A DNA stretch of 64,000 nt from Candidatus Zipacnadum vermilionense (lineage in GTDB: Bacteria > Armatimonadota > Zipacnadia > Zipacnadales > Zipacnadaceae): assembly GCA_029821755.1 (NCBI GenBank), contig JALGSV010000011.1:1-64000 (forward strand). Direction: 5' to 3'. Within the stretch, counting starts at the first letter, position 1. Each line of letters begins with the position of its first letter. The position numbers were made by a program, and so were the translations under genes. Of this stretch, positions 18,917 to 45,102 are shown one piece after another. The notes under the pieces are model-generated. The model ran no database searches and was not told where the DNA came from. It saw only the letters and a program-made list of their open reading frames with translations.

Positions 18917-19987
18917 ATGACCGCACGCGAGATCTTCCTGCGTACGATGAGATACGAGCCGGTGGAGCGGCCGCTGGTGATTGCTCTGGAGCCCTATGAG
19001 CAGTACGGCGTGGACCGCTGGCGGGAGCAGGGGCTGCCGGCGGGGCAGTCGCCTGAGCGGGCGCTGGGGATGGACCGGCTGGAGCTGGTGCCGGTTTCCT
19101 TCAGCTCGCTACCGGACTGGGAGACGCGAGTGATCGCCGAGGACGACGAGTACATCACCGAGGTGGGGTGGCTGGGAGCGACCATCAAGCGCCGCAAGGA
19201 CGCGCCGGGGATGTACTACGGCCATGTGGACCACGCGGTCAAGACGCGGCAGGACTGGGAAGAGTGCAAGTGGCGCTTCCGAGCCGAGACCGAGGGGCGG
19301 TTGCCGGCGGATCTGGACGCCCTGGCCGCCCAACTGGAGGCCTCCGACCAACCGGTGGGGCTGCACGTTTTCCCCTTCTTCATGCGGCTGGGGTTCTACC
19401 TGATGGGGATGGAGCGGTTCCTGACCGCCTTCCATGAGGAGCCGGACCTGATGCATGACATGTTCGGCTTCTGGGGCGAATTCGTGCTGGAGACGCTGCG
19501 GCCGCTACTGGGGAAAGTGCGGCTGGACTTTGTGACCTTCGCCGAGGACCTGGCCTATACGAAAGCGCCGCACATTTCGCCGCGAGTCTACGAGGAGTTC
19601 TGGCTGCCGTACCAGGACCCGATCGTGGAGGCGCTGCACGGGGCGGGGGTGCCGATGGTGTGTGAGTGGTCGGCGGGGAACCTGGAGCCGCTGCTGCCGC
19701 TGATGTTGGACCACGGGATTAACTGCACCTGGCCGCTGGAACGCCAAGCAGGGATGGACGCGTATGCGGTGCGGAGCAAGTACGGCCGGGATCTGCGCCT
19801 GGGCGGGGGCTTCCCCAAGGAGGCGCTAATCGCCGGGCCGGAGGCGGTGGACCGGGAGATTGAGCGGCTGCGGCCGCTGATGGAGGAGGGCGGGTTCGTC
19901 CCGGCGTTGGACGACATGGTCCCGCCGGAGGTGCCGTGGGCGACGTATCGGCATTATGTGGAGAGGATGAAGAGCTTGCGGTGGTAG
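18917..19987 (+). CDS. URO-D-like (uroporphyrinogen decarboxylase family) protein 1
   Basis: A 356-aa TIM-barrel protein of the URO-D/methyltransferase superfamily. It opens TAREIFLRTMRYEPVERPLV, the usual family start, and has the late run LRLGGGFPKEALIAG, matching the GGI/GGF-xx-xxL ending of the barrel. The HemE substrate-binding start motif is absent, so it is not the haem enzyme. Such proteins often act as corrinoid-dependent methyltransferases, but no clear Cys/His zinc site is obvious here. ATG 18917 has AAGGAG upstream. First gene of a cluster with a glycyl radical enzyme and two more URO-D paralogues. Confidence 0.82.
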   Translation: MTAREIFLRTMRYEPVERPLVIALEPYEQYGVDRWREQGLPAGQSPERALGMDRLELVPVSFSSLPDWETRVIAEDDEYITEVGWLGATIKRRKDAPGMYYGHVDHAVKTRQDWEECKWRFRAETEGRLPADLDALAAQLEASDQPVGLHVFPFFMRLGFYLMGMERFLTAFHEEPDLMHDMFGFWGEFVLETLRPLLGKVRLDFVTFAEDLAYTKAPHISPRVYEEFWLPYQDPIVEALHGAGVPMVCEWSAGNLEPLLPLMLDHGINCTWPLERQAGMDAYAVRSKYGRDLRLGGGFPKEALIAGPEAVDREIERLRPLMEEGGFVPALDDMVPPEVPWATYRHYVERMKSLRW

Positions 19988-20031
19988 TCGAGAGTCGAAT
20001 GTCGGGAGTGGGGAGAGTTGAGGGATTGAAG

Positions 20032-22311
20032 ATGTCGTTTGAGGACGAGCGGGCAGGATTCGAGAAGGAGCTGGAGGAGTATTACGCCACCTACCCCAGC
20101 GACTTGAGCGCGCTGGAGGCGGAGCTGCACGCGCTTAGCGCGGGGCATCCGGAGTGGCGGCCGGCGCAACGGAAAGCTGCCGCGTATGGGGTGCTGGCGG
20201 AGCGCTGTCGGGTGCGGGTGTTCCGGCACTTCCCCTTCTACTTCGAGATGGATACGGGCCGGAGAAGGACGGACCTGGGGGAGGGCGGGGTCGGCGGGTG
20301 GATGAAGCGCGAGCCGTTCGGGCAAGCGTTGGGGGCGCAGGGCGTGGCCTGGTGGAAGCCGTGCGAGGAGAGCGGGCTGTCCATCGGCTGGCCGGTGCTG
20401 GATGATAACCACCATTGTATCGGTAACGACAACGTCTTCCGGGGCGGGCTGAACGGGCTAGTTCGGGAGGCGGAGAAGCGGCTGCGAACGGTGCAGCCTC
20501 ACCCCCTTCCCCCTCTCTTGGCAGGAGAGGGGGAAGCAGGACGGGAGCGGGCGTTCCTGGAGGCGGCTATCGCCGGGAATCAGGCGTTGATCAGGATCGC
20601 CGAGCGCTTCGCGGAGGAGGCGGAGCGGCGGCGGACGGAGGAGACCGACCCGGCGGTGCGAAGGAGGCTGGAGAGGATAGTCGCCGCGGCGCGGCGGGTA
20701 CCGGGTGAGCCGCCCGCCACTTTCTACGAAGCCCTCAATACGCTGCTGTTCATGCGCGAAGTCACCCAGGAGTTGGAGAGTAACGGCAATAGCATCCTGG
20801 GGCACCTGGACCGAATTTTGTGGCCCTACTATGAGCGGGACCGGGCGGAGGGGCGGATCACCCGCGAGGAGGCCCAGGACCTGCTGCGCTTCTTCCTGGC
20901 CTTCCACGATGTACGCTTCGGGATGCGCGAACAGCGGTCGCATTACGGGACGAATACCACAGTGGTGATCGGCGGCTGCGACACGAGTGGGACGCCGCTA
21001 TTCAACGATCTGACCCAGATGATCGTGGAGGTATACCGCGAGCTGCGGTTGGTAGACCCCAAGCTCAATGCGCGGGTGTCGCGGGAGCATCCCGCCGAGT
21101 ACCTCGACCTGTTGGCCGACCTCATCGCCTCCGGCAATAAGGCCCTGGCCCTCTTCAACGACGAGGTGATCATTGAGGCTAACGTGAAGGTGGGCAAGGC
21201 GCGGGAGGACGCGCGGCTGTACGTGGGCGGGGGCTGCCAGGAGAACCTGCTGGAGAACACGGAGATAAACAGCCGGGCCACGATCTACCTAAACCTGGCG
21301 CACGTGCTGCTGATGGGCTTCTTCCCGGAGCAGTGGGCGTGGTTCGCCGAGCGGGAGGGGCTGGTCCTGGAGAGGTACGAGGGGACGCGGAGCTTCGCGG
21401 ACCTCTACGGAGCGTTCCTGCACAATCTCGCGACGGTGGTGGGGACGCACATTGATCAGCGCAACCGGACGGAGGCGGAGGGCGGGCAGTACAACCCCTG
21501 CCCACTGCATTCCTCCACGATCAGCGACTGCCTGGCGAAGGCGCGGGACATGATGGCGGGAGGGGCGCGCTACAGCTTTGGGAGCGTCGCTCTGACCGGC
21601 GTAGGGACGCTGGTGGACTCGCTGTTCGCGCTGAAGGAGGTCGTCTGGGAGCGAGGGGAGGCCTCCCTGGAGCGCTTCCGGGAGAGACTCGCCGCCGACT
21701 TCGCGGGGGAGGAGACCTTCCGGCAGTACCTGGTGAATCGCGTGGCGAAGTTCGGGCAGGAGGACGAGGCCATCCGCACCTTCTCCACGCGGGTCTTTGC
21801 CGACCTGGCGCGGGTTTGCTCAGGGCAGTCCAATACGCGAGGCGGAGTTTACGAGGCCAGCCTCTTCTCCTTTCGCACCTTCGCGGGGATGGGCGTGCGT
21901 ACGGGGGCGACTCCCGACGGGCGACGCGCCGGCGACCACCTCTCCCCCGGCATGAGCCCCAGCCTGCTGGCCCTGGGGGAGCGCTGCGGGGTGGCGCAGG
22001 TGCTGCGGGCACTGGAGCCGCTGGCCTTGACGCTGTACCCGGTGGTGGCGGTGCTGGATGTGAAGATCCCGGCGGTCCCGGGAGGGTGCCGGGCGGAACT
22101 GCTGACGCCGGTGATCCGGCGCTTCCTGGAGATCGGCGGCTCGGTGCTGCAGATTAACTGCGTGGACCCGGCATTGCTGATCGAGGCCAAGGCGCATCCG
22201 GAGCGGCATCGGGATCTGGTGGTGCGAGTGAGCGGATATAGCTCGTACTTCAACACGCTGCCGGCGGAAGTGCAGGATGAGGTGATTGAGAGGACGCTGG
22301 TGGAGGTGTAG
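20032..22311 (+). CDS. Glycyl radical enzyme of the pyruvate formate-lyase family
   Basis: A 759-aa member by length and ending. The thiyl Cys is C402 in GGGCQEN, a single Cys rather than the Cys-Cys pair of true pyruvate formate-lyase. The radical Gly is G735 in RVSGYSSYF. In other families the residue after Cys and Glu helps set the reaction; here the C-Q-E-N context does not match the choline, glycerol or 4-hydroxyphenylacetate enzymes that I know, so the substrate is unknown. No radical-SAM activase gene is nearby. Residues about 156-168 are encoded by a dispersed repeat (20497-20534) inserted in frame. The ATG at 20032 was chosen by homology of the start; the ribosome site is weak. Confidence 0.85.
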   Translation: MSFEDERAGFEKELEEYYATYPSDLSALEAELHALSAGHPEWRPAQRKAAAYGVLAERCRVRVFRHFPFYFEMDTGRRRTDLGEGGVGGWMKREPFGQALGAQGVAWWKPCEESGLSIGWPVLDDNHHCIGNDNVFRGGLNGLVREAEKRLRTVQPHPLPPLLAGEGEAGRERAFLEAAIAGNQALIRIAERFAEEAERRRTEETDPAVRRRLERIVAAARRVPGEPPATFYEALNTLLFMREVTQELESNGNSILGHLDRILWPYYERDRAEGRITREEAQDLLRFFLAFHDVRFGMREQRSHYGTNTTVVIGGCDTSGTPLFNDLTQMIVEVYRELRLVDPKLNARVSREHPAEYLDLLADLIASGNKALALFNDEVIIEANVKVGKAREDARLYVGGGCQENLLENTEINSRATIYLNLAHVLLMGFFPEQWAWFAEREGLVLERYEGTRSFADLYGAFLHNLATVVGTHIDQRNRTEAEGGQYNPCPLHSSTISDCLAKARDMMAGGARYSFGSVALTGVGTLVDSLFALKEVVWERGEASLERFRERLAADFAGEETFRQYLVNRVAKFGQEDEAIRTFSTRVFADLARVCSGQSNTRGGVYEASLFSFRTFAGMGVRTGATPDGRRAGDHLSPGMSPSLLALGERCGVAQVLRALEPLALTLYPVVAVLDVKIPAVPGGCRAELLTPVIRRFLEIGGSVLQINCVDPALLIEAKAHPERHRDLVVRVSGYSSYFNTLPAEVQDEVIERTLVEV
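20497..20534 (+). repeat. Intragenic copy of the CCTCACCCC repeat within the glycyl radical enzyme gene
   Basis: CCTCACCCCCTTCCCCCT, CTCTTGGCAGGAGAGGGGGA: this is the same palindromic unit found between genes at 22369, 23550, 26182 and 30265 and in the lipoprotein gene at 43266. Here it is translated as PHPLPPLLAGEGEAG without breaking the frame. Confidence 0.8.
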
Positions 22312-22368
22312 GGAGGGAATTACCCCGATGTGCTACGTTGGTTGCCGGGCGAGGCGCGGTAGATAGCG

Positions 22369-22463
22369 CCTCACCCCCCTGCTCCCCTGCCCCCTCTCCC
22401 TCGCTTGGCTCGGGAGCAGGGGGGGTCTGAGGCCAGCGCGGGCTAGCAAGCCCGCGCCACGCG
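22369..22463 (+). repeat. Composite palindromic repeat, copy 1
   Basis: A CCTCACCCCCCTGC unit whose outer arms CCCCCCTGCTCCC and GGGAGCAGGGGGG can form a 13-bp stem is followed by the second unit GCGCGGGCT-AGCA-AGCCCGCGC and CACGCG. The same two-unit order recurs at 23550-23628 and 26182-26257. It fills most of the gap before the second URO-D gene. Confidence 0.75.
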
Positions 22464-22482
22464 TATCGACAGAGGTTTGCCG

Positions 22483-23544
22483 ATGCATCAACAGATGGCG
22501 GAGATTCTGCTGAACGCCTATGCCCATCCCGAGCGGAGGGCGTTCTTCTATACGTTCATGGGGCGGACGGAGACGGGGAGCGAGCGGCTCAACGCGATGC
22601 CGTACTGGGACTGGAATCCCCAGCCACCGGTGCAGCTGCCGGAGGGGGCGCCGCCGTGTGGGACGCAGTCCATGGCGCTGGACTTTGGGTGTCCGCCGCT
22701 CATCACCAGCGACGGGCGGGAATGGTGCGAGCCGCTCATTCACGATCCGGCCCAAGTGAAAGATATCGAGGTCCCGGACGTGGCGCAGGGACGCATCGGG
22801 GCGCAGGTGAAGTATCTACGGCGGGTGGCCGAGGCGCTGCCAGAGGGACACACCCACCACCTGTGGGCCCCGCTGGCGCCGCTGGGTATAGCGGAGTTGA
22901 TGTGGGACAACTCCTTCTACACAGCGCTGATCGAGCGCCCGGACGCCGTACACGAACTGCTGGACAAGATCACACAGTACATCATCCGCGGCAACCAGGC
23001 CGCTCATGAGGCGCTCGGCCGGGAGCACGTCAACCCCACCGCCTGCCCGCCTCTATGGTGCCGCACACCAGGGTACTACATCTCCGACGATACGATGTGT
23101 CTGCTCTCGCCGGAGATGCACCGGGAGTTCAGCGTCCCCTACATCAACCGCATCACCGCGGCCACCGGGCCGATGCACTACCATTCTTGTACCTGGAGGC
23201 CGCAGTACTTCGATAACCTCCACCAACTGGAGAACGTGATAGTTTTCAACTGGAATCCGGGCAACTCCGAGGACCCGGCGGTGATTATGCGGGAGTTCGC
23301 CGGGAAGGCGGTGCTCGCGCCACATATCGTGCACCGGATGCACCGGGATGGGGATGTGCTGAAGTGGAAGCCGGACTTCGCCGACGAGTATGAGTTCTTC
23401 AAGTACTTCCTGGACAACCGGCCGGACAACGGTACGGTATTCGTGTGGTTCAGCAACATCGTGGAGAATGGGCCGGTGATGGACCGCATCTATGACCTGC
23501 TGCATGCGGAAGGGCTGACACCACAGGCGCAGGGGCTGGCGTGA
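22483..23544 (+). CDS. URO-D-like protein 2
   Basis: A 353-aa URO-D superfamily protein. The centre has THHLWAPLAPLGIAELMWDN and the barrel end has HYHSCTWRPQYFDN, where URO-D proteins have their conserved H-(S/C)-D/C segment; this His/Cys combination could bind a metal. The start is ATG 22483 with AGAGG upstream; a TTG two codons earlier is possible. It lies between two composite repeats and before a third URO-D gene. Substrate unknown. Confidence 0.8.
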   Translation: MHQQMAEILLNAYAHPERRAFFYTFMGRTETGSERLNAMPYWDWNPQPPVQLPEGAPPCGTQSMALDFGCPPLITSDGREWCEPLIHDPAQVKDIEVPDVAQGRIGAQVKYLRRVAEALPEGHTHHLWAPLAPLGIAELMWDNSFYTALIERPDAVHELLDKITQYIIRGNQAAHEALGREHVNPTACPPLWCRTPGYYISDDTMCLLSPEMHREFSVPYINRITAATGPMHYHSCTWRPQYFDNLHQLENVIVFNWNPGNSEDPAVIMREFAGKAVLAPHIVHRMHRDGDVLKWKPDFADEYEFFKYFLDNRPDNGTVFVWFSNIVENGPVMDRIYDLLHAEGLTPQAQGLA

Positions 23545-23549
23545 GGGGG

Positions 23550-23628
23550 CCTCACCCCCCTGCCCCCTCCCCTGGCAAGAGAGGGCGTAGCAGAGGAGAG
23601 GGCGGGCTGGAAGGCCCGCCCCACGCGG
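23550..23628 (+). repeat. Composite palindromic repeat, copy 2
   Basis: The CCTCACCCCCCTGCCCCC unit is followed by GGCGGGCTGGAAGGCCCGCC and CCACGCGG. It lies between the stop of URO-D 2 and the start of URO-D 3, and ends 9 bases before the start codon. Confidence 0.75.
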
Positions 23629-23637
23629 AGGACATCC

Positions 23638-24708
23638 ATGGCCGCGACAATGACCAAACGCGAACGGGTGGAGGCGGCGCTGGAGCGGCAGGAAACTGAC
23701 CGGGTGCCGGTATATGACCTGCTGCTGAGCGACGCGGTAATCACCCACTTCACCGGGCAGCTCGCACCGGTGGGTGATGAGGGCAGGCGGCTGCGGCTGC
23801 GGGCGATCGCCCAATGCCTGGACATGACCCGCGCGGCGGCGTATGGCCCGGCGGAGCCGGGGGACTGGACCGATGAGGACGGATTCGTGCACAACCGGGA
23901 GCGCTGGACCGGCGGTGGCCTGCGGAGTCGGCCCTTCCACGACGAGGCGGGGGCGCGGGAATGGCTGGGGAAGGCGATCGCGCGGCTGCGGGAGCCGTTC
24001 GAGGCGCGGGCGCATGGCGAGGCCTTCCGGGAGCACTGGGACCTGATGCGGAAAGAGCTCGGGGATGATACGGTGGTGTTGAATGGGGAGACGGGAACGG
24101 GGCTGGATGACGTGCGGTACATGCTGGGGCTGGAGCTATTCTCCTACCTGGCGGTGGATGCGCCGGAGATGATCTCGGAGTACCTGGAGTTGGCCACCGA
24201 CCGGGAGGTGGCCAAGATTCATGCGATTGCGAACCGGGAGCTGTCGCCGTGCGCGATGACCTTTGGGGATATCGCCTGTAAGGGGCGGCTGCTACACTCG
24301 CCGGCGTGGCTGCAGCGGGAATTCTTCCCGCGCCTGCGCCGACTGAATGACGCCTGGCATGAGCATGGGATCAAGTGCCTGTTTCACTCCGACGGCTACC
24401 TGATGGAGATCATGCCCGAGCTGATAGAGACGGGGATAGACGGGCTGAACCCGATTGAGACGGTGGCGGGAATGGACCTGGGGGAGGTCAAGCGGCTCTA
24501 CGGGGACCGGCTGTTTTTGACCGGGGGGATAGACATCAGCCAGCTCATGGCGCTGGGGACAGTCGAGCAGGTGCGGGAAGCGTGTCGGGAGGCGATAACG
24601 GTGGCTTCGCCGGGGTACTTCCTGGGATCCACCACCGAGATAGACGACGGGGCGAAGCTGGAGAACGTGCTGGCGATGTGGGAAGTGAGCCGGGAGGCCA
24701 TATGCTGA
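23638..24708 (+). CDS. URO-D-like protein 3 (MtaA/CmuA-type methyltransferase family)
   Basis: A 356-aa URO-D superfamily protein starting TMTKRERVEAALERQETDRVP, the standard opening of this family. Later landmarks are DIACKGRLLHSPAWLQREFFPRLR, CLFHSDGYLMEIMPELIETGIDGLNPIE, and FLTGGIDISQLMALGT. The HSDG run replaces the H-x-C zinc motif of MtaA, so a zinc methyltransferase role is doubtful. Its stop overlaps the ATG of the MttB-family gene, so the two are coupled and probably act together. Confidence 0.85.
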   Translation: MAATMTKRERVEAALERQETDRVPVYDLLLSDAVITHFTGQLAPVGDEGRRLRLRAIAQCLDMTRAAAYGPAEPGDWTDEDGFVHNRERWTGGGLRSRPFHDEAGAREWLGKAIARLREPFEARAHGEAFREHWDLMRKELGDDTVVLNGETGTGLDDVRYMLGLELFSYLAVDAPEMISEYLELATDREVAKIHAIANRELSPCAMTFGDIACKGRLLHSPAWLQREFFPRLRRLNDAWHEHGIKCLFHSDGYLMEIMPELIETGIDGLNPIETVAGMDLGEVKRLYGDRLFLTGGIDISQLMALGTVEQVREACREAITVASPGYFLGSTTEIDDGAKLENVLAMWEVSREAIC

Positions 24709-26162
24709 TAAGAGGCTGCGCCAACGTGCTAACCAGCGACGAGAGGGAGCGCATCCATGCGCAGGCGGTGCGCATCCTGGCGGAGATTGGGGCCGAGGTC
24801 CAGAACGCAGATCTGGTAGAGGCCTTGCAGGGGCAGGGCGCGGTACTGGACGGCCGCACCGGGCGGGTGCTGCTGCCGGAGGCGGCGATCGCGCAGTTCA
24901 TCGACGAGTCGGACACGGTGGCGGACATGGCGAGCGGGGCGGCGCCGGGAAGCGGGTTGAATCCGTCGAGCTCGGCGCGGGCCACTGTGCAATGCGCGGT
25001 GGGCGGGTATGGGCTGCACTACCTGCCGCTGGGCGGGCAGCCACCGCACCAGATAACGATCCCGGACATTGAGAGCTTCACGCGGCTGGCGGACGCCGCC
25101 GAGGGCGTGGACGAGATCGGCTTCATAGGTTTCCCCAGCGACGTCCCCAAACAAACGGCCACGCTGCATGTGTGCTTGGCGATGTGGAAGAACCTGGGAC
25201 GGAACCAGAACTCCTGGAGCCAGGGGAATCTACTGAACGAGGAGATGCTTCCCTACCGGGTGGAGATGGCGGAGATCATGGCCGCGGAGAAGGGTGGGAG
25301 CGTCAACGACTACTTCAACGCGGGCGTATTCATGGTGCCGCCGCTAAAGGTGCCCCGCGTGGAGGCGGAACTATTCCTGCGCTGCCAGGCGCTGGGGCTG
25401 AACTCGGGCTTTAGCCACATGCACAGCATCGGCGGCAATGCGCCAGTGACCATCGCGGGGACCGCAAGTCTGCTGTTGGCCCACACCTTCCTGACGCTGA
25501 TCCTCAACCGCGTCTACTATGGGGGGCGGTATTTCGAGGTGGGAGCGTCGGTGGGGCTCATGGACATGAAGAACTGCATCTTCGCGCCCTCGCGGCCCGA
25601 GGTGGCCCTTACATACCTGGCGCTGGCCGACATGGCGCGGGAGCTGTACCACGTGCCCTTCAATGGCTACACATCGCTGATGAGTAACGCGGCGTATCCG
25701 GGGGAGACGGCGGGGATGGAGAAGCTGATGGTGGCGCTGCCGAATGTGCTAGCGGGCTCAGCGGTCCTGGCGGGAATGGGCAGCTTGTCACTGGACGAGA
25801 TCATCTCGCCCGTGCAACTCATGCTCGATTGCGACCTGGCCCAGGCGCTCAAGCGACTGGCGCAGGGGTTTGAGGTGAACGAGGAGGCGCTGGCCTTTGA
25901 GGTGATCCGGGAGACGGTGCTGGGGAACGGGGTCTTCACGGCGACGGAGCACACGGCACGGCGCTTCCGGCAGGAGCAGTGGATTCCCGACCTGTGGGCG
26001 CGGGAGATGTACCACACTTGGAAGGCGCACGGTGGACGCAAAGACGTGGAGGTGGCCGAGGAGCAGGCGCGAGGGATCCTGGACAGCCACTTCCCGAGAG
26101 GGATCAGCGAGGAGACGGAGCGGGAGTTGGGCAGGGTCATAGAGAGGGCGGAGGGGCGTTGA
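24702..26162 (+). CDS. MttB-family (trimethylamine methyltransferase superfamily) protein, non-pyrrolysine
   Basis: A 486-aa protein of the MttB superfamily, with the typical opening TSDERERIHAQAVRILAEIG and an interior of GG-rich TIM-barrel runs (GFSHMHSIGGNAPVT, GGRYFEVGASVG). The frame is uninterrupted, so no amber codon is read as pyrrolysine; non-pyrrolysine members (MtgB, MtpB, MtcB) demethylate betaines and related quaternary amines. No corrinoid protein gene is visible in the window. It overlaps URO-D 3 by 7 bp (ATG 24702). Confidence 0.85.
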   Translation: MLIRGCANVLTSDERERIHAQAVRILAEIGAEVQNADLVEALQGQGAVLDGRTGRVLLPEAAIAQFIDESDTVADMASGAAPGSGLNPSSSARATVQCAVGGYGLHYLPLGGQPPHQITIPDIESFTRLADAAEGVDEIGFIGFPSDVPKQTATLHVCLAMWKNLGRNQNSWSQGNLLNEEMLPYRVEMAEIMAAEKGGSVNDYFNAGVFMVPPLKVPRVEAELFLRCQALGLNSGFSHMHSIGGNAPVTIAGTASLLLAHTFLTLILNRVYYGGRYFEVGASVGLMDMKNCIFAPSRPEVALTYLALADMARELYHVPFNGYTSLMSNAAYPGETAGMEKLMVALPNVLAGSAVLAGMGSLSLDEIISPVQLMLDCDLAQALKRLAQGFEVNEEALAFEVIRETVLGNGVFTATEHTARRFRQEQWIPDLWAREMYHTWKAHGGRKDVEVAEEQARGILDSHFPRGISEETERELGRVIERAEGR

Positions 26163-26181: not shown

Positions 26182-26257
26182 CCTCACCCCCCAGCCCCCT
26201 CTCCTGGCAGGAGAGGGGGAGTTGCGAGGGCGGGCTGGGAAGCCCACGCCACGCGGG
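26182..26257 (+). repeat. Composite palindromic repeat, copy 3
   Basis: CCTCACCCCCCAGCCCCC and CTCCTGGCAGGAGAGGGGGA (an 8-bp hairpin around GGCA) are followed by GGCGGGCTGGGAAGCCCACG and CCACGCGG. It lies between the MttB-family gene and the GH20-like gene. Confidence 0.75.
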
Positions 26258-30209: not shown

Positions 30210-30264
30210 CGGCCGCAGAGCGGCAACTCGCCGTCGAGACGATCTGTTCGCGTCAGCCGCAGAG

Positions 30265-30304
30265 CCTCACCCCCTGCCGCCTCTCCTGGCAGGAGAGGGG
30301 GGAG
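30265..30304 (+). repeat. CCTCACCCC palindromic repeat copy
   Basis: CCTCACCCCCTGCCGCCT and CTCCTGGCAGGAGAGGGGGG, a single unit between two convergent genes. A CGCCCCTAC motif follows at about 30330. No other gene is seen in the interval 30210-30332. Confidence 0.65.
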
Positions 30305-43258: not shown

Positions 43259-45102
43259 GTGAGAGCCTCACCCCCTGCCCCCTCCCCTTGCAGGGGAGGG
43301 AGTTCCGAACCGAGGCAGTCCCTGCACCCTCTGAACTCCCCCTCCCCTGCTCAGCGCACGGAACGCGCGCAGGGAGGGGGCCGGCGGGTGAGGCTCCGTG
43401 CCGCTATCTGCTCCTGCTGTTGGTTCTGCCTCTTCTCCTGACTGGCTGCTCGACCCGCGCCCAGCGCATCTACCGCCGCGCCGAGGCCTCCTTCGCCCAA
43501 CAGAAGTACGATCTGGCGGCTTACGACTATGCCGTCATCGTGCGCGACATGCCTAAGGACCCGCTGGCGGATATGGCGCTGTACAAGCTGGCCTACCTGT
43601 ACCGCGAGCACTACAGCGACCCGGCCATGGCGGCGCGGCTGTACCAACGTTTGGTGCAGGAGTACCCACAGAGCCAGTTGGTGGGTGATGCGCTGTCGTA
43701 CACCGTCTATCTGCAGGCGCGGGAGCTGCAGAACCCGGTGGCAGTGTTGCAGACCTGCCAGCAGATGGAACAGCTGGTGCCCGACAAGCCGGGCCTGCTG
43801 GCTCGCGCGCGGCTGGAGCTGGCCGGCGCCTACCAGCGCAGCAATCAGATCAACTTGGCCGTCCAAACCCTCGAGCAGGTGAGGAAGGATTACGCCGGGG
43901 AGGCGGACAGCTCCACAGAAGCGTATTATCGTTTAGCGCTGCTCCATCGCGACTACCTGGACAAACAGCAGGACGCTGCTCGGATGCTGGAGACCCTGAT
44001 CAAGAGCCACCCGGACTCCGCGGCGGCCGCCAAGGCGCGGCAGGCGCTGGGGTGGCAGTATTACACGCTCAAGAACGTGGAGGAGAAGCAGCGACAGGAG
44101 GAGTTGAAGAAGCTGGCGCGAGTGCTGCCCAATGTACCGGCGATCAACGCCCAGTCGCATCCGTCGCTGGAACTGCTCAGCGGCTTGCAGTCGCTGCTGG
44201 CCCAAGCCGGGACGCAGACGAGCTTCGCGGACCTGATGGTGGTAACCGGCTTGGCCTTCCAGACGGTGGTGAGCTGGGAGCACCCCGGCCAGGCGCTGTT
44301 CTTCGGGCGCAACCCCATGCCGCAGGTGGCGGAGGCCTGGGGATTCGGCTACAATGCGTGGACTTTCGCCTCGGCCCAGGAGGGGATGCTGGCCCTGGCC
44401 AACTCGCTGGCGCAAGGACGGCCAGTGCTGATGCTCTACGGCCGTAGCACGCCGCACTGGTGCCTGTTCGTGGGCTACCAGCCGCTCGAGCAGCAGACGT
44501 ACGTGCTCAAGCCGGGGCAGCGCAAGTATAGCGTGGTCGCCGCGACCGCTTTCACTGCCGCCTGGCCGCAGAAGGCCGGAGCGCAGATCTTCACGCCCCT
44601 GCCGGCCACCGGCTACCAGTTTGCCTTGACCCAGCGGGCCGGGGAGCCCGCTCACGCGCAGATGTTGCGCACGGCGCTGCTCCGAGCGGTGATGGCGCTG
44701 GACCAGACGGAGTTGCTGGGCGCCCCGGCAGGCAAGGCGGGGTATGCGGAGATCGGCCGGCGCCTGGAGGCCTGCGCCCAGGACGCGGAAGCCGCCGAGC
44801 AGACGGGCAAATGGGCAACGGCAGTGACGCCGATGCTGGTCAGGGCGCGCCAGGCCGCAGCCGCCAGTCTGCAGGCCGCCACGCCGGAGTTCCCCGCAGA
44901 GCAGCAGCCGGCGCTGCAGGAGGCGGCGGATCGCTACAGGCAATTCGCCGACCGCTGGCAAGCGCTGGGGACCAAGATTAGCGCAGCGGCTGCCGCCACC
45001 GGTCCGACCGGGGACTGGAAGACGCTGCGGGAGGAGGCCGAGGCCCTGGGCACGGAGGAGCAGCAGACGCTGAGGTCCCTGAGCGCGACAGTGGGAGGCT
45101 GA
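43255..45102 (+). CDS. TPR lipoprotein with a cysteine-peptidase-like C-terminal region
   Basis: A 615-aa exported lipoprotein. The lipidated Cys is residue 65 (LLLTGC). An N-terminal stretch of 50 residues before the signal core comes from a dispersed palindromic repeat (43266-43301) translated in frame. Residues 70-300 are TPR-like helices similar to BamD/YfiO or YbgF (YDLAAYDYAVIVRDMP, AARLYQRLVQEYPQS, AARMLETLIKSHPDS). Residues 345-440 have WGFGYNAWTFASAQ and LMLYGRSTPHWCLFVGYQ, similar in shape to C39-type peptidase domains, with His-Trp-Cys-Leu-Phe-Val-Gly-Tyr. The C-terminus is a helical coiled-coil. The GTG start overlaps the previous stop. Confidence 0.72.
   Translation: MSESLTPCPLPLQGREFRTEAVPAPSELPLPCSAHGTRAGRGPAGEAPCRYLLLLLVLPLLLTGCSTRAQRIYRRAEASFAQQKYDLAAYDYAVIVRDMPKDPLADMALYKLAYLYREHYSDPAMAARLYQRLVQEYPQSQLVGDALSYTVYLQARELQNPVAVLQTCQQMEQLVPDKPGLLARARLELAGAYQRSNQINLAVQTLEQVRKDYAGEADSSTEAYYRLALLHRDYLDKQQDAARMLETLIKSHPDSAAAAKARQALGWQYYTLKNVEEKQRQEELKKLARVLPNVPAINAQSHPSLELLSGLQSLLAQAGTQTSFADLMVVTGLAFQTVVSWEHPGQALFFGRNPMPQVAEAWGFGYNAWTFASAQEGMLALANSLAQGRPVLMLYGRSTPHWCLFVGYQPLEQQTYVLKPGQRKYSVVAATAFTAAWPQKAGAQIFTPLPATGYQFALTQRAGEPAHAQMLRTALLRAVMALDQTELLGAPAGKAGYAEIGRRLEACAQDAEAAEQTGKWATAVTPMLVRARQAAAASLQAATPEFPAEQQPALQEAADRYRQFADRWQALGTKISAAAAATGPTGDWKTLREEAEALGTEEQQTLRSLSATVGG
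43266..43301 (+). repeat. Intragenic copy of the CCTCACCCC palindromic repeat
   Basis: CCTCACCCCCTGCCCCCT and CCCCTTGCAGGGGAGGGAGT form a hairpin. The unit lies inside the N-terminal extension of the TPR lipoprotein gene and is read in frame as SLTPCPLPLQGREF. No in-frame start codon is seen between it and the signal peptide, so the extension must be translated. Confidence 0.7.

Follow-up and report, generated by a model that had tools for sequence, protein, structure and literature searches.

Three described systems bear on the repeat analyzed here. The triplex motifs TM and PIT, G/C-rich sequences of the intrastrand type, are recorded in over 260 bacterial genomes (Holder et al. 2015, PMC4666352), and the rule for TM given in that source comprises three blocks of 6-15 nt and loops of 1-6 nt, with at most one faulty triad. 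In Escherichia coli MG1655, the motif is described there as "always located intergenically" and as lacking promoter or terminator activity, and a link to transposons was not found, so far as that account goes. The Rickettsia palindromic elements (RPE) are, according to PMC10969869, palindromic repeats of about 150 bp that lie in frame in unrelated genes, the added segment seemingly being tolerated. The REP, BIME and REPIN repeats (see PMC3733652) are palindromes of 20-40 bp that occur in high copy number in genomes with RAYT (REP-associated tyrosine transposase) genes, and carry a GTAG or CGTC tag. The triplex motif being reported as strictly intergenic in E. coli, with no mobilizer named in the account cited above (PMC4666352), copies within genes matter: each is an insertion event in a known frame, open to comparison with homologs, so that the spread of the element can be tested, as can the question of whether it supplies usable protein segments.

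The window, i.e., the whole stretch of 64,000 nucleotides of Candidatus Zipacnadum vermilionense that was analyzed, contains a gene for a glycyl radical enzyme into which a dispersed TM-like repeat has very probably been inserted in frame (Table 1). The repeat resembles the TM/PIT motif in that it combines a hairpin with a mirror-image third segment (stem of 10, loops of 5 and 2, no more than one faulty triad in 54 of the 70 copies) and, like the motif of PMC4666352, is dispersed, present in many copies and mostly extragenic. By inspection, it departs from the E. coli TMECO consensus at the stem tip, in the second loop (2 nt vs 3) and at the foot. Given that the repeat follows the TM rule but does not match the literal TMECO consensus, we refer to it as TM-like and not as TMECO. 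Unlike the E. coli motif, which is described as always intergenic, 9 of the 70 copies detected here are located in frame within genes. As with RPE, one palindromic unit is thus found in frame in several unrelated genes (those for GH95, SpoU-type and PIG-L proteins, among others), and RPE are the closest precedent for the effect. Unlike RPE, however, the unit is only about 41 bases long and most of its copies are intergenic. The likeness is one of effect, and membership in RPE is not claimed.

Table 1. Coordinates of the glycyl radical enzyme gene, the parts of its repeat copy and the other repeat copies in the window
Feature	Position	Strand	Basis
PFL-like glycyl radical enzyme gene, 759 aa, carries the insert	20032..22311	+	Pfam, motifs
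Core 38-nt repeat copy, in frame, encodes PHPLPPLLAGEG and part of the next codon	20496..20533	+	
Leader CCTCACCCCC, mirrors the stem arm save in one place, possible third strand	20497..20506	+	
Pyrimidine-rich stem arm CCCCCTCTCT; in this copy the final pair is T-G (wobble)	20509..20518	+	
Hairpin loop TGGCA	20519..20523	+	
Purine-rich stem arm GGAGAGGGGG	20524..20533	+	
Loose tail AAGCAGGACGGGAG, its AGCAG common to many other copies	20534..20547	+	
More diverged repeat copy between two URO-D genes	23551..23588	+	
Repeat copy with perfect palindrome, downstream of the MTTB-like gene	26183..26220	+	
Repeat copy, flanks not coding in frame	30264..30301	+	
Repeat copy with compensated stem pair C-G at position 20/30	43265..43302	+	

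The host gene starts with ATG, and its frame of 759 codons (20032-22311) is open throughout. A Pfam search identifies a PFL-like domain at residues 126-616 (E 5.2e-99) and a Gly_radical domain at residues 691-741 (E 6.4e-12), so that both domains expected of such an enzyme are present, together with the Cys and Gly motifs. The latter, which we take to be the conserved Cys in GGGCQE (399-404) and the glycyl-radical motif RVSGY (732-736), are both intact. The enzyme falls under every cut-off of the NCBIfam equivalogs, and the nearest solved sequences are trans-4-hydroxyproline dehydratase (6vxc) and the Archaeoglobus GRE (2f3o). The gene belongs to a run (18920-26159) in which an MTTB-like methyltransferase and three URO-D-like proteins are encoded alongside the enzyme; the neighbors also include a gene whose product has a xylose-isomerase-like barrel. 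An Rfam search with 20300-20700 returns only three miRNA matches, far under their gathering scores and attributable to chance (E 0.36-0.67).

The first-pass annotation placed an in-frame repeat at 20497-20534, and the sequence is present there, within the open 759-aa frame. The peptide quoted for it needs trimming: 20497-20534 encodes PHPLPPLLAGEGE less part of the last codon, and the 15-residue PHPLPPLLAGEGEAG that was given ends about seven bases further on. The core pattern CCCCCTCTC-N6-GGAGAGGGGG is matched without mismatch at 20509-20533, and the copy as a whole differs from the 38-mer consensus in only three bases. These departures are confined to two codons, both of which still encode Leu; this fits a tolerated peptide, the number of differences being too small for a test.

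A search of the 4.39-Mb genome with the oriented 38-mer, at up to 3 mismatches, detects 70 copies, compared to 0 control matches. With the core pattern at up to 2 mismatches, the whole genome yields 108 forward and 109 reverse matches, and the reversed pattern, used as a control, yields 6 and 4. When up to 3 mismatches are allowed, there are 10 matches in the window (five sites, both strands), with 0.15 expected from shuffles. The consensus of the 70 copies, about 41 nt in length, is (GGA)GCCTCACCCCCTGCCCCCTCTCCTTGCAGGAGAGGGGG followed by a loose tail. Each stem pair is of the Watson-Crick type in 63 to 69 of the 70 copies, and pair 20/30 is altered on both sides in 13. An outer stem formed from the upstream and downstream flanks was considered and rejected (mean 4.09 vs 4.06 for shuffled partners). 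An inverted relative of the repeat is located about 120 bases downstream of the copy at 43265. A diverged relative with 18-nt arms that are 89% complementary lies at 22371-22424, directly downstream of the glycyl radical enzyme gene.

Read backwards, the leader CCTCACCCCC matches the arm CCCCCTCTCC at every position but one, where the leader has A and the arm T; this exception corresponds to a T.A-T triad on the purine strand. When class II triads are scored, 54 of the 70 copies attain 9 or 10 out of 10, the one in the glycyl radical enzyme attaining 9. Two triplex-type sites are found in the window, compared to none in five mononucleotide shuffles. The term "palindromic repeat", used in the initial description, is therefore correct with respect to the hairpin but incomplete, the whole being a triplex-type motif with at least 9 triads in 54 of 70 copies. 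Among the 13 copies in which pair 20/30 is changed on both sides, the leader follows the change in the stem in 2; what is conserved may be something other than the triplex itself. In the genome designated G016, the core pattern has 79 matches that mostly lack the leader, and thus class-wide counts mix core-only and leader-bearing families. Judging by these matches, the hairpin and the leader can be uncoupled.

Comparison with homologs is possible for eight relatives that are readable at the site of the insert (L051, L018, L133, L134, L135, L136, L019 and L020); sequences L022 to L046 were left out of this comparison, and L052 and L053 were used for structure alignment alone. The best sequence spanning the site is the full-length ortholog L051, which is 58% identical. 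Seven of the eight lack 13 residues (39 nt) and L135 lacks 12, in agreement with the original estimate of about 13 residues added without a frameshift. The closest relative at the site reads ...GSDP-ERDFLQAAIAGNQALI, and the enzyme of the window reads ...TVQPHPLPPLLAGEGEAGRERAFLEAAIAGNQALI. The same residues in orthologs had been named as the observation that would speak against an insertion; they occur in none of the eight. More distant GREs differ in the length of this loop: L021 has just one residue fewer and an unrelated sequence, and 6vxc and 2f3o are shorter by 7 and 8, respectively, so that length varies at this site. The letters of the repeat are absent at this site from all the enzymes read, near and distant. 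The nearest relative, from G101 (68% identity), is split between one contig that begins at residue 184 and another that covers residues 1-41, leaving the site uncovered. A close relative in which the site is empty was looked for without success among these sequences. The insertion is poorly dated because the nearest ortholog that covers the site is only 58% identical, and it does not show, as stated in the first-pass annotation, that the repeat is still moving. Where exactly the insertion begins and ends is left ambiguous by the downstream AGCAG, a sequence present after many other copies as well; more than 39 nt may have entered, at the expense of some native codons. The two GCAG tetramers that lie 43 bp apart were dismissed as a target duplication of 4 bp, given that AGCAG is part of the tail in many copies.

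It had been proposed that the insert be checked for location in a surface loop. An AlphaFold model derived from four sequences places residues 156-166, at pLDDT below 50, between helices 130-153 and 168-203, but its mean pLDDT of 55.8 is poor, too poor for claims on the fold. Such a model is consistent, but weakly so, with an insert in a flexible linker or loop between two predicted helices, and falls short of proving a location at the surface. A Foldseek search with it detects GREs at TM of about 0.4 and was set aside.

For the analysis of genic copies, a codon model was trained on the open reading frames of the window, the 70 copies were classed by their 150-nt flanks, and 1,613 positions from the same loci served as controls. 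Both flanks are coding in the same frame for nine copies (L081, L083, L087, L094, L098, L104, L112, L118 and L119), of which L087 is the one in the glycyl radical enzyme. The remaining copies have flanks coding on the same strand in another frame (3), on opposite strands (1), on one side only (19) or on neither side (38). Same-frame genic copies are strongly depleted, at 9 of 70 (13%) compared to 67.6% of the control positions (p 3e-21), and of the 12 same-strand genic cases 9 keep the frame (p 0.004 relative to one third), a figure that could be altered if the 3 frame-shifted cases are gene junctions. The depletion together with the bias towards the reading frame is the pattern expected if selection removes other insertions. 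The codon model missed three further copies in open frames: L067 in the gene of a SpoU-type methyltransferase, L079 in that of a protein whose CBM match is below threshold, and L130 in that of a Hel308-like helicase. Thus, the claim of the first-pass annotation that genic insertion is uncommon is not supported in this genome, where such genic copies number about a dozen, including the one in the glycyl radical enzyme.

Support from outside homologs differs among these cases. It is good for the GH95 protein L083, with about 26 extra residues relative to 7kmq, for L067, with about 30 extra residues, and for the PIG-L protein L119, in which the alignment is continuous with few extra residues; it is fair for L081, L098 and L104, weak for L094 and L118, and absent for L112. 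Seven of the nine in-frame copies use two frames: four read PHPLPPLLAGEGE on the leader strand, and three read PPLLxGEGAGGE, or a sequence close to it, on the opposite one. The repeat core is free of stops in five of the six frames, and the peptides in the most-used frames are rich in Pro, Gly and Glu. For annotation, a peptide similar to PHPLPPLLAGEGE in a protein is to be taken as the signal of a DNA repeat and not as a domain.

Other readings of the 13 residues have to be weighed against insertion. A native loop of this lineage that resembles the repeat by chance or composition would be in line with the variable length of the site in distant GREs and with the G+C-rich genome, but it is hardly tenable for a segment in which all but three bases match the 38-mer consensus, in a genome with 70 copies of that sequence compared to none in the control, and with no triplex-type unit in the five shuffles. 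An insert retained for a function in the protein, e.g., as a binding or regulatory loop, appears improbable: the frame is intact and the differences from the consensus are all synonymous, as such a role would have it, but only two codons differ, and the occurrence of the same peptide in unrelated proteins points to a DNA unit and not to a protein function. Repeat insertions in enzyme genes are often inactivating, and the gene might then be in decay as a pseudogene, with no selection against the insertion. This is very unlikely for a gene with 759 open codons, intact catalytic Cys and glycyl-radical motifs, a strong codon signal on both sides of the insert and a Pfam match of the significance given above.

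The insertion of a TM-like repeat, the preferred reading, very probably took the following course. A copy of the dispersed element, with its 10-bp hairpin and a leader that mirrors one arm, entered the gene at some time, for a net gain of 39 nt. With a core that is free of stops in all but one frame and encodes Pro/Gly/Glu-rich peptides in its most-used frames, such a copy would survive an in-frame arrival wherever the protein tolerates it, which in this enzyme would be the segment between two predicted N-terminal helices, distant in sequence from the catalytic motifs. We infer that the element was copied in and did not arise in place, and that the insert serves as an exposed linker, which the enzyme tolerates and which has no separate function.

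As to the copying enzyme, the best guess is a RAYT transposase, and it is tentatively possible, as an addition to the above and not as an exclusive alternative, that the repeat is a non-autonomous unit copied by the RAYT-type transposases of the genome via a single-stranded hairpin. The Y1 transposases of the genome match the RAYT model NF047646, with two of the four scanned exceeding the cut-off. Across 101 genomes, with relatedness unmodelled, NF047646 matches are found in each of the 31 genomes that contain 3 or more core copies, compared to 49 of 70 others (Fisher 2.9e-4), and within the class in 21 of 21 compared to 15 of 25 (p 8.9e-4); the control family DDE_Tnp_1 displays no such link in 46 genomes (15/21 vs 16/25, p 0.75). 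However, the link is weaker on genus means (rho 0.37, p 0.07) and non-significant outside the class (10/10 vs 34/45, p 0.18), and it was counted with the core pattern, whose copies in G016 mostly lack the leader, some of the matches being weak. No repeat copy is present in or near the five fetched Y1_Tnp loci of the genome, the sixth NF047646 match (C63) being outside this comparison. Like the REP, BIME and REPIN repeats, the element is a short, high-copy palindrome in a genome with RAYT genes, but it carries the leader CCTCACCCCC instead of a GTAG or CGTC tag, and, unlike in BIMEs or REPINs, inverted neighbors are not in excess. A further leader site accompanies 6 of the 70 copies at a distance of up to about 250 bp, inverted in 4 cases and direct in 2, which does not exceed the frequency in the far flanks; pairing of the BIME or REPIN type was rejected. 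The presence of RAYT genes in repeat-rich genomes is suggestive only.

Genic copies of related motifs might not be limited to this genome. A loose search of plasmid records yields nine records at E of 1 or lower, two of them, both from other phyla, with the motif within annotated genes; viral loci, at least 120 stretches, lay outside the analysis. In a DNA methyltransferase gene of a Pseudanabaena plasmid, the motif is in frame and encodes SLTPQPPLPRGEGEQENLLLLPSPSGRGAGGEG before CDPACGSGHF; in wecB of a Mitsuaria plasmid, it is also in frame and encodes PSPLPSPASGRGGGRSSGGLPLPLAGEGGGEG, with the Pfam match ending at residue 346, just ahead. The DNA matches of these two genes are individually weak (E 0.07 and 0.8, respectively). 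No report of the triplex motif in frame in genes was found in a search of the open-access literature, with most subscription journals outside its scope. It is a rather doubtful proposition that RAYT-copied repeats of the triplex type are a recurrent source of new in-frame protein segments across several bacterial phyla, being almost stop-free units that, in the frames they usually adopt, encode Pro/Gly-rich loops and pass selection when in frame.

Other dispersed repeats are found alongside the one described here. A second palindrome, GCGGGCTGGAAAGCCCGC, and its relatives, often followed by CCACGCGG, occur in the window at 23602, 42264, 42347 and 44634, and in the GH95 gene a palindrome of the GCGGGCTGGAAAGCCCGC type directly adjoins the triplex-type repeat, both lying inside one insertion. 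A third palindrome, of the type ACCGGCGAGACGCCGGT, is located in the flanks of copies L104, L105 and L118 and encodes TGETPVPP or similar peptides in open frames. In the genome designated G055, the reversed (uncomplemented) core pattern has 73 and 69 matches, whereas the unreversed pattern has 5 and 5; a different repeat family with the mirrored sequence thus appears to be common in that genome.
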